From Cellulosimicrobium cellulans (GTDB taxonomy: Bacteria > Actinomycetota > Actinomycetes > Actinomycetales > Cellulomonadaceae): DNA of 64,000 nucleotides. Position 1 is the stretch's first letter; each line of letters starts with the position of its first letter. The notes beneath the pieces are model-generated. The model ran no database searches, had not been told where the DNA came from, and was given only the letters and a program-made list of their open reading frames with translations. The position numbers were made by a program, and so were the translations under genes. The stretch covers positions 2,914,001 through 2,978,000 of the forward strand of contig NZ_JAFBCN010000001.1 of assembly GCF_016907755.1 (NCBI RefSeq), given 5' to 3'. Positions 25,391 to 64,000 of the stretch are shown here, piece after piece.

Positions 25391-25464
25391 GCCCCGGTAG
25401 CCCAACCGGCAGAGGCGTTCGGCTCAAACCCGATCCAGTGTGGGTTCGAATCCCACCCGGGGCA
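25391..25464 (+). tRNA. tRNA-Leu (CAA) with a short variable loop
   Basis: A 74-nt cloverleaf. Acceptor GCCCCGG/CCGGGGC is fully paired; the D arm has a 3-bp stem (GCC/GGC) and a loop with GG; the anticodon loop CTCAAAC gives anticodon CAA (UUG, Leu); the T arm is GTGGG-TTCGAAT-CCCAC; discriminator is A. CCA is not encoded. The variable region is only 5 nt (CCAGT), whereas bacterial tRNA-Leu normally has a long variable arm, and base pair 27-43 is a U-U mismatch. The 11-nt D loop resembles that of tRNA-Leu. Identity as Leu rests on the anticodon. Confidence 0.85.
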
Positions 25465-61986: not shown

Positions 61987-62733
61987 GTGCACGCTCACGA
62001 CGACGACCAGGTCGAGGTCCCGCTGACCGGAGGGAACGTCAACGCCGTGGTGCGCGTCGGCGACACCGTGCGGCGGACGGCCGGTCCGTGGACGCCGACG
62101 GTCCACGCGCTCCTCGCCTGGGTCCGCGCCCAGGGGGTCTCCGTGGCCCCCGCGCCGCTCGGCCGCGACGCGGCCGGGCGCGAGGTGCTGACCTGGACCG
62201 AGGGCGAGGTCGGCGGCTGGCCGCTCCCGGACTGGCTCTGGGACCGCGCGACGCTCCGCCAGTCGGGCGCGATGCTGCGGGCGTGGCACGACGCGACGGT
62301 CGGCTTCGCGCTCACCGGGGCCGTGTGGCGCTCGCCCGTGCGTGAGCCGGCGGAGGTCGTGTGCCTCAACGACGCCGCGCCGTACAACATGGTCCGCGCG
62401 GACGGCACCCTCGTCGGGTTCATCGACGTCGACATGGCGTCGCCCGGGCCTCGGGTCTGGGACGTCGCGTACCTCGCCTACCGGCTGTGCGGCTGGTGCG
62501 AGGACATGCCGGCCCCGCCCGGGCTCGCGCCAGACGAGCGGCTCGCCGAGCTGCTCACCGGCTACGGCCGCGACCGCGCACCGGCTCCCGACGACGTGCT
62601 GTCGGCGATGCACGACCGTCTCCTGGACCTCGCCGACTGGACGGACGCGCACGCCCGGGACACCGATCGTCCGGACCTGCACGACCACGCCGCGCTGTAC
62701 CGCCGCGACGCGGCGCGCCTCCCCCGGGGCTAG
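61987..62733 (+). CDS. Aminoglycoside phosphotransferase-like protein
   Basis: 248 aa. The catalytic loop reads VCLNDAAPYNMV (Asn in place of the usual His, catalytic Asp, and Asn as metal ligand) and GFIDVDMASPGPRVWDVAY gives the second metal Asp. Substrate unknown. GTG 61987 lies 6 nt after GATGAT with an extended TGC, so leaderless. Divergent from the M50 gene; its stop overlaps the convergent HAD stop (CTAG). Confidence 0.82.
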   Translation: MHAHDDDQVEVPLTGGNVNAVVRVGDTVRRTAGPWTPTVHALLAWVRAQGVSVAPAPLGRDAAGREVLTWTEGEVGGWPLPDWLWDRATLRQSGAMLRAWHDATVGFALTGAVWRSPVREPAEVVCLNDAAPYNMVRADGTLVGFIDVDMASPGPRVWDVAYLAYRLCGWCEDMPAPPGLAPDERLAELLTGYGRDRAPAPDDVLSAMHDRLLDLADWTDAHARDTDRPDLHDHAALYRRDAARLPRG

Positions 62734-63476
62734 GCCGCGTCGTCGGCCATGAGGTCGACGACCTCGCCGGAGACCAGCCGGGCGAGCAGGTCGAGGTCGA
62801 CGAGCTCCAGCGACGGAGTCCGGCTCAGGCCGGGCGCCGGGAGGACGGGGACCACGGCCTCCACGCCGAGCGTGGCCGCGCCGGCCGCGCGGGCCGAGGC
62901 GATGCCGGCGGGCGAGTCCTCGATGGCGACGCAGCGCGTGACGTCGACGCCGAGGCGCTCGGCCGCGAGCAGGTAGGGCTCGGGGTCGGGCTTGCCGCGC
63001 TCGACCTCGTCCCCGCACACGAGCACCTGGAACGCGTCGTCCGGCGCGAGCTCCGCGACGGGCGCGGCGAGCTCGCGGTAGGACATGGTGACGAGCGCGC
63101 ACGGCACGCCGGCCTCGCGCAGCGCCGTGAGGAGCTCGCGCGCGCCGGGCTGCCACGGGACCGCGGCCTGCACCTGCTCGACGACCCGGCCCAGGAGGAA
63201 CGCGACGATCTCGTCGATCGGCAGGTCCACGCCCCCACGCTCTCGGATGATCCGCGCGGACTCGCGCAGCGGGTTCCCCACGAGCGACATGGCGTCCTCG
63301 TGCGTCCACGTGCCCCCGTGCGCCTCGACGAGCTCGTGCTCCGCCGCGATCCAGTAGGGCTCGGTGTCGACGAGCGTGCCGTCCATGTCCCACAAAGTTG
63401 CCTCAGGCAACGGTAAGCCGCCAGAGAACTCAATAGCGCGCTGACCTGCGGAAATACCGTCGGTACGAGAGGACAA
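62730..63476 (-). CDS. HAD family hydrolase with element-derived N-terminus
   Basis: Up to 248 aa. HAD motifs: I DMDGTLVDTE, II VTMSYRE, III GKPDPEPY, IV IEDSPAGI; a phosphoglycolate-phosphatase-like cap is present. The first ~28 codons (before LWDMDG) have low-GC, rare-codon sequence unlike the rest and match the foreign DNA that follows. The longest reading starts at TTG 63476 with GGAG 7 nt upstream; the native start appears to have been replaced by the integrated element. Confidence 0.82.
   Translation of the reverse strand: MSSRTDGISAGQRAIEFSGGLPLPEATLWDMDGTLVDTEPYWIAAEHELVEAHGGTWTHEDAMSLVGNPLRESARIIRERGGVDLPIDEIVAFLLGRVVEQVQAAVPWQPGARELLTALREAGVPCALVTMSYRELAAPVAELAPDDAFQVLVCGDEVERGKPDPEPYLLAAERLGVDVTRCVAIEDSPAGIASARAAGAATLGVEAVVPVLPAPGLSRTPSLELVDLDLLARLVSGEVVDLMADDAA
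63397..63411. other. Candidate attachment-site palindrome
   Basis: GTTGCC-TCA-GGCAAC, a perfect 6-bp inverted repeat with 3-nt spacer, located at the composition break at the 5' end of the HAD gene. It could be the core-type site of the recombinase. Confidence 0.5.
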
Positions 63477-63498
63477 GAGTGATCTCCATCAGTGGTCA

Positions 63499-63516
63499 TG
63501 CAACGAACCGTGCAAC
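63499..63516 (+). repeat. Paired TGCAAC repeats (possible arm-type sites)
   Basis: TGCAAC at 63499-63504 and 63511-63516, in direct orientation with 12-bp spacing, each followed by an A/C-rich stretch. Their location between the att candidate and the integrase gene is typical of arm-type binding sites. Confidence 0.4.
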
Positions 63517-63657
63517 AACCGACCCTAGCCGCATTGAGGCGCATAGAGCGACGAGAGGCGCGCCCCCACGGCACCCCGCACATCTACGGGACATGAACCC
63601 CTCACCATCCCGGCCATCCCTCCCGAGTCCCCCCGCCATCACCCAGGGGGGTCTGGC

Positions 63658-64000
63658 ATGACCCGCCGAAGCAAGGGCGACGGCTCCATCAGCTCGTACC
63701 GCCTCGCCAACGGCCAGCTCCGCTGGCGCTGTCAGTGGTACGAGCCGAAGGACCCCATGAACCCCCACCTCGGGAAGCGCCTCGTGGGCAAGGGTGGCTT
63801 CGCGTCTCCGGCTGAGGCCCGCATTGCGCTCCTCAAGCACTTGGTGCTCGTCTCCGACGGCAGGACGACGACCGCGCAGAGCCGTACGACCTTCGATTCC
63901 TACGCCCGTCGGTGGCTTGCGGGCTACCACTTCCCGTCGCCCAACACCCGCGTCTACGTCCAACGGGTCATCAACGCCGTGCAGCCACACATCGGCAACC
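63658..64000 (+). CDS. int: Tyrosine recombinase/integrase, N-terminal fragment
   Basis: 114 residues are visible before the window ends. MTRRSKGDGSISSYRLANGQ is the N-terminal arm-binding (AP2-like) domain of phage-type integrases, and FDSYARRWLAGYHFPSPNTRVYV begins the SAM-like core-binding domain. The catalytic domain is outside the window. ATG 63658 has GGGGGG 5 nt upstream. Codon use includes ATT, CTT, CAA and TTG, unlike the neighbours. Confidence 0.88.
   Translation, partial: MTRRSKGDGSISSYRLANGQLRWRCQWYEPKDPMNPHLGKRLVGKGGFASPAEARIALLKHLVLVSDGRTTTAQSRTTFDSYARRWLAGYHFPSPNTRVYVQRVINAVQPHIGN

Follow-up and report, generated by a model that had tools for sequence, protein, structure and literature searches.

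A putative integrative element substituting the 5′ end of a HAD hydrolase gene in Actinobacteria

A 20,952-bp element encoding a tyrosine integrase appears to be inserted at a short core in a HAD hydrolase gene, to supply an in-frame substitute for the 5′ end of this gene and to occupy a site that has been used repeatedly (probability of this reading: about 0.9). The ends of the element, the displaced start, the empty sites of sister species and the recurrence in relatives are read directly from the sequences compared.

Layout of the junction and ends of the element

The window (the whole stretch of DNA that was analysed, 64,000 nucleotides) corresponds to positions 2914001-2978000 of a 4.79-Mb genome (one contig). 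The features of the junction are listed below; positions beyond the window are given as window-equivalent.

62730-63476, minus strand: HAD-family hydrolase ORF, 248 aa, TTG start.
62730..63394, minus strand: host-derived body of the HAD gene, including motif I (WDMDGTLVDTEP); assigned by Pfam HAD_2 and by homology to sister genomes G002, G012 and G007.
63384..63394, no strand: att core CATGTCCCACA, 11 bp; second copy at window-equivalent 84336-84346, same orientation.
63395..63476, minus strand: first 27-28 HAD codons, attributed to the element from their composition and from alignments with native and element-type starts.
63397..63411, no strand: perfect inverted repeat GTTGCCTCAGGCAAC, found from the sequence.
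63441..63454, minus strand: TTTCCGCAGGTCAG motif, read as encoding (I)SAGQ in the new N-terminus.
63474-63476, minus strand: TTG start codon of the HAD gene; the 248-aa frame is open across the junction.
63484..63487, minus strand: GGAG Shine-Dalgarno sequence.
63499..63516, minus strand: pair of GTTGCA-type repeats within the supplied leader, candidate sites for a recombinase or a regulator.
63522..63527, minus strand: TAGGGT, candidate -10 box of the supplied promoter.
63658..64000, continuing to window-equivalent 64902, plus strand: tyrosine integrase gene, divergent from the HAD gene.

The HAD assignment is based on Pfam HAD_2 (PF13419, E=2e-31). The integrase (414 aa) matches PF00589 (E=1.1e-21) and a PHROG integrase family (E=1.1e-70); its gene starts 264 bp from the core. 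GC content is ~0.74 over most of the window vs 0.685 in 63001-64000; it is 0.63-0.69 across 64-80 kb and 0.72-0.73 again in the final 4 kb of the element. GC3 is 0.52 for HAD codons 1-27 vs 0.99 for the remainder of the gene. The compositional anomaly at the HAD N-terminus on which the original prediction was founded is thus real. A tRNA gene as the target was rejected: ARAGORN finds none at the junction, the tRNA genes found being Leu at 25391 in the window and Leu at L010:11900, past the element.

Exactly two copies of CATGTCCCACA, at 63384 and 84336, are present in 98 kb of chromosome reaching 90 kb past the window. They have the same orientation, and the element therefore measures 20,952 bp. 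The left copy falls inside the L-W-D-M codons of HAD motif I. The right copy is followed by a reversed HAD-like 5′ end (TAGGGT, GGGAG, ATG) translating as MAAPHGEMNAVHGTSSSVVLPDAVLWDM, whose reading frame enters element sequence and meets a stop six codons on. A junction repeat had been expected downstream of the window, and it was found there with a displaced HAD 5′ end beside it. This right end (attR) was located by reading the sequence, then checked by sister comparison and core count; a search that allowed mismatches, run over 40 kb in windows of 18-30 bases, did not detect it. Exact matches of 63251-63700 to the 98 kb are no longer than 14 bases, and one of the three longest (63519/84461) falls in the leader block shared by attR and the left end (attL). 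The shortness of the shared core, 11 bp, speaks against the main reading.

An orthologous HAD gene is found in 17/17 genomes of the genus. In 12 of them, a PAC2-like gene begins 194-264 bp away from the M of the WDMDG sequence, and the native starts of these PAC2-adjacent genes are unlike the one described here. The PAC2-like gene is missing within 1.5 kb in the other 5/17: the own genome, G008, G010, G013 and G015. DNA homology to G002, G012 and G007, whose HAD bodies are 0.93-0.96 identical to the own one, stops at 63394 and picks up at 85562, 85562 and 85556, respectively; these are the uninterrupted sister genes with which a comparison had been proposed. Homology to G008 and G010 extends across the supplied start, as far as 63533 and 63531, respectively.

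A further 1.2 kb of DNA, which is absent from the sisters and carries a DUF4184 gene, separates attR from the shared flank. The 5′ end at attR differs from the native start of the sister species, the exact empty site of the own lineage not being among the genomes compared. It shares with attL a 34-base block (28 identities) that spans the TAGGGT box and the GTTGCA-type repeats. The attL-attR local score was matched by 0/1000 dinucleotide shuffles; against the native G002 start, the score of attL was reached by 979/1000 and that of attR by 205/1000. Since the displaced start is itself element-like, the site has probably been used at least twice: an older element of like kind may have replaced the start and decayed, and its start would then have been displaced by the present element. 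The same likeness, together with the return of the native flank only at ~85560, also fits a single element or a tandem pair running from 63395 to ~85560 (22.2 kb), in which the start at 84346-84470 would be a second element-borne copy. This arrangement is rather unlikely. A third core copy is absent in the 98 kb, among the matches listed no integrase-like one stands out in the 1.26 kb right of attR, and serial insertion, with the older element decayed and its start left behind, already explains the observations.

The cargo recognised in the element includes an HTH regulator, a metallophosphoesterase and a DUF6414 match below the cut-off. A 944-aa protein (L008:10284-13118, window-equivalent 66284-69118) has a weak N-terminal match to Mrr-like nucleases and a NACHT ATPase match just below the cut-off; its PADLOC matches are weak and partial, and it is a candidate STAND-type defence protein. 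PHROGs, searched with eight proteins of the element, returned the integrase and unknown-function families for three others; two element proteins fall in one PHROG of unknown function. Several element proteins have no match at all. Of the 13 own-element proteins searched against Pfam, none was recognised as a relaxase, a coupling protein or part of a secretion system, and none of these 13 or of the eight searched against PHROGs as a virion protein; a holin match in Pfam is sub-threshold (E=0.0094).

The supplied 5′ end and its recurrence in relatives

The proposed mechanism is as follows. The tyrosine-integrase element would insert, by means of its own integrase, through site-specific recombination at the 11-bp core in the L-W-D-M codons of motif I. 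Its end would bring a probable -10 box, a Shine-Dalgarno sequence, a TTG and 27-28 in-frame codons, and the previous 5′ end would be moved to the far end of the element. As the element end supplies 5′ expression signals and in-frame codons, the HAD body would still be read, from element signals and with a different N-terminus. The HAD protein may remain active and the element may remain able to excise; the order of these events is a reconstruction. The site would be used repeatedly, the supplied start outliving the integrase in several relatives.

The pattern GC-N-GGTCAG followed by the HAD core within 20-50 bases was found in 8/221 genomes of the family (own, G008, G010, G015, G052, G060, G094, G173; three genera), the reversed control pattern in 0. 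GGAG followed by 6 or 7 bases and an in-frame TTG is present in all eight motif-bearing starts. In the own start, GGAG stands seven bases before TTG and the frame is open from TTG across the junction over 27-28 codons of the element, as had been predicted. A TAGGGT box is found in five of the eight (own, G008, G010, G060, G094) and in the own attR; variants are TAGAGT in G173 and TACCCT in G015, and none of these three boxes occurs in the starts of G052 or G013. The G013 start is related yet diverged and uses GTG. The true start is uncertain in G008, G010 and G173: GGAG is overlapped there by an in-frame ATG, four codons ahead of TTG, which could serve instead. The inverted repeat GTTGCCTCAGGCAAC, previously regarded as a signal of the junction, does exist, but lies outside the core and is absent from the other element-type starts; it is probably incidental, with no support as a functional site.

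The supplied start could also be unused, the island being decayed and the HAD gene translated from elsewhere or silent. The start codon is TTG, expression of the gene is a prediction from the sequence, and the first ATG in frame after the TTG encodes the M of WDMDG (63384-63386). From what is known of the HAD family, initiation at this ATG would delete the first catalytic aspartate of motif I. In addition, the GGAG-N6/7-TTG arrangement is kept in 8/8 diverged starts, a TANNNT box in 7/8, and the frame is open. An unused start is accordingly judged very unlikely, and continued reading of the HAD gene from the signals of the element is preferred, as a deduction.

Integrases matching at E<=1e-60 were found in 3/221 genomes of the family: own, G015 (53% identity) and G094 (64%, other genus). 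All three adjoin a HAD start with the same divergent layout, in two genera. This layout in two further genomes, the empty sites of the sisters and the repeat with its displaced start uphold the central claim of the original prediction, i.e. integration with re-supply of the start. At order level, the integrase was found at the same threshold in 1/396 genomes, which is the own genome. Among pattern-matched stretches, 1/25 was confirmed in the genome_contigs search (a Micrococcales MAG) and 0/1 in viral contigs. Placement of the hosts in Actinobacteria is based on the label of this MAG, on high GC and on gene content. The integrase and HAD translations of the MAG locus are the same as those of G094 by eye, and the locus is counted once. 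Phage records gave 2159 integrase matches, all under 60% identity.

The G015 element heads to a contig end, where a second core copy adjoins another HAD-like 5′ end; the PAC2-like gene of this genome is at the end of another contig. The contig end is possibly an assembly break at a repeat. A ClpX-like fragment was seen by eye after the right end of the element (L048:18107-18420, G015:C2 end). A small HTH_17 protein encoded between the HAD and integrase genes of G015 is a candidate excisionase. The second end of the element was not reached in G094 and G060.

Element-type starts occur near no intact integrase in six relatives (G008, G010, G013, G052, G060, G173). Such an N-terminus in relatives lacking an integrase had been named beforehand as an observation that would speak against integration, and formally it is made. 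However, in all of these relatives except G060 the HAD gene is separated from its usual neighbour by ~2-4.6 kb of extra DNA: the flank comes back after ~2.0 kb in G008, 2.2 kb in G010 and 3.0 kb in G013, and the gap between HAD and PAC2-like genes is ~4.6 kb in G052 and 2.7 kb in G173. No integrase match was found in the 39.5 kb (G052) and 32.8 kb (G173) examined. The left end of G060 aligns with that of G094 at 92% over 174 bases; a gap of 207 bases follows, and then a 101-base segment that aligns at 84%. This segment codes for integrase residues 36-68 (match E=6.8e-8; tblastn at a loose limit, E=10, so that this match and the DNA alignment are relied on), and no other part of the integrase was found on the 3.6-kb G060 contig. 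Because of the extra DNA and of this integrase fragment, the six starts read better as remnants of elements than as host ancestry.

Other genes were noted by eye in the same interval. The ~2 kb between the HAD and PAC2-like genes of G008 (L044) encode, directly behind the element-type HAD start, a HipB-like regulator and a HipA-like kinase, and hold no integrase. The 2.2 kb of G010 (L046/L047) include an exported hydrolase-like ORF, and 3.0 kb lie in the interval of G013 (L065). This interval has the appearance of a gene-gain hot spot.

These starts bear on a further explanation, according to which the unusual N-terminus is an old host variant beside which the integrase merely landed. To compare ancestry, the 150 bases preceding the core were aligned locally, and each pair was scored against 200 shuffles. 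Among the 28 pairs of motif-bearing starts, 26 scored above every shuffle (0/200), the exceptions being G010/G015 (48 of 200 shuffles) and G010/G052 (1 of 200). The G013 start is near that of G015 (0/200) and weakly like the own one (2/200). Between G094 and G060, which belong to one other genus, the starts are 0.95 identical and the bodies 0.84 identical. None of the 24 pairs of a motif-bearing and one of three native starts went beyond all shuffles; the lowest were G010/G002 and G010/G007 (2/200 each). A global comparison gave 0.74 identity between the G008 and native G002 starts, counting aligned columns only, which is weak for 115 bases; it is superseded by the local scores and shuffles.

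For genus g4, 28 genomes were taken by number, excluding three known positives; 26 have the ortholog and 25 its upstream sequence. The PAC2-like gene lies within 1.5 kb in 20/25 loci (within 300 bp in 17) and is absent in five. The motif is found in 0/25 of these usable loci, and the own type of 5′ sequence was seen free of inserted DNA in none of the 17 genus genomes or 25 g4 loci. The five loci that lack the PAC2-like gene within 1.5 kb are L141, L143, L144, L147 and L148; by eye, LTLS-type starts resembling that of G013 are present in at least L141 and L147, so that such loci may hold additional fossil starts. The HAD ortholog match of L143 (G067:C24:32037-32675) contains one in-frame TGA. 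The relatives do not count as independent observations, and some of the genomes are drafts.

An old host variant would account for the six element-type starts near no intact integrase. Four PAC2-adjacent g4 starts (L149, L153, L154, L155; e.g. LSTLADR) are loosely similar by eye, and G010 and G008 are borderline-similar to native starts (2-33 of 200 shuffles). Yet the TTTCCGCAGGTCAG-type motif is present in 0/12 PAC2-adjacent HAD genes of the genus vs 4/5 of those that have no PAC2-like neighbour, and in 0/20 PAC2-adjacent g4 genes. The own 5′ end resembles the three native ones at the level of chance (score reached by 194, 200 and 147 of 200 shuffles), whereas the bodies are nearly identical; moreover, GC3 drops in the supplied codons, and the second core adjoins a displaced HAD start. 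An old host variant is therefore considered extremely improbable, and the start is attributed to the element.

The TTTCCGCAGGTCAG motif inside the supplied codons

Queried without the HAD core, the motif matched 27/221 genomes and returned 30 loci. TTTCCGCAGGTCAG is present with up to two mismatches in 29 of the 30; three are HAD starts. The 3′ part of a tRNA-Arg gene lies within 100 bases after the motif in 12/30. Five single-contig genomes were inspected. Four have an intact tRNA-Arg(CCT) gene 4.5-10.7 kb from the motif; the tRNA 3′ part directly follows the motif in two of them, is partial in G086 and is missing in G028. The fifth, G074, has tRNA-Leu in place of tRNA-Arg(CCT). Integrase-like ORFs are present in three of the five, and in 2/27 loci examined with 1.5 kb flanks (two of the 27 were not orientable). 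A second exact 13-base copy of TTTCCGCAGGTCAG in the own genome (4441000) has no integrase match in the 30 kb examined around it.

Codon usage at the motif is unlike that of seven neighbouring genes, in which GCA and GCT make up 4/346 Ala codons and GGT 16/250 Gly codons: GCA or GCT is used in 7/8 motif-bearing starts and GGT in 8/8. GGT is set by the search pattern, and the third base of the Ala codon is free. TTTCCGCAGGTCAG is a candidate recombination-arm site of recombination modules and is probably an attachment-flank motif common to several integrative elements; the supplied codons at this place are probably recombination DNA.

In a broader model, with about even chances of being right, this HAD gene would have, in the actinobacterial family, a start that acts as an exchangeable cassette. 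With each successive element, the promoter, the start codon and the N-terminus would be swapped; the set supplied last would stay fixed after loss of the element since the host needs it. The N-terminal codons would be arm sequence shared with tRNA-Arg elements, so that recombination DNA would have become host protein. Empty, occupied and apparently fossil sites among related species make it directly testable whether element starts become permanent host starts, and whether the start swap alters the amount or activity of the host enzyme. The conserved gene also offers a natural attachment site for integrase tools in high-GC bacteria.

Relation to known integration systems

According to the available parts of two papers, islands and prophages specific to dusA carry an integrase-coded insertion that replaces the 5′ end of the gene, with putative promoters (PMC4482086, PMC8409611). 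The element described here has the same layout: an integrase-coded insertion in the 5′ end of a conserved gene, for which island sequence is substituted. It differs in its target (a HAD hydrolase of PF13419, not dusA), in its host (Actinobacteria) and in its core (11-bp CATGTCCCACA here; 21-bp attL/attR consensus in the parts available for dusA). This comparison concerns insertion layout and core. Starts that outlive the integrase and serial use of the site are observed or proposed here; the available parts of the same two papers make no mention of them for dusA islands.

The ICE SXT, inserted in the 5′ end of prfC, gives this gene a new promoter and N-terminus (available part of PMC8409611). 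Likewise, the 5′ end of a protein gene is hit here, and a new N-terminus and a candidate promoter are supplied. SXT is conjugative and belongs to Gammaproteobacteria, whereas no conjugation gene was found here among the 13 element proteins scanned with Pfam. Islands targeting tRNA genes restore the split gene (available part of PMC4383910) and, like the present element, carry a substitute for the severed part; unlike theirs, the substitute is here the 5′ part of a protein gene, diverged and with its own candidate expression signals. No description of an integration site in a HAD hydrolase gene or related to this genus was found in the titles and abstract openings inspected, all from open-licence papers.

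By analogy, the mechanism would match that of dusA islands and of SXT in prfC, the target gene, host group and core being different. The HAD gene would thus join dusA and prfC as a protein gene at which mobile elements replace the start, here in Actinobacteria.
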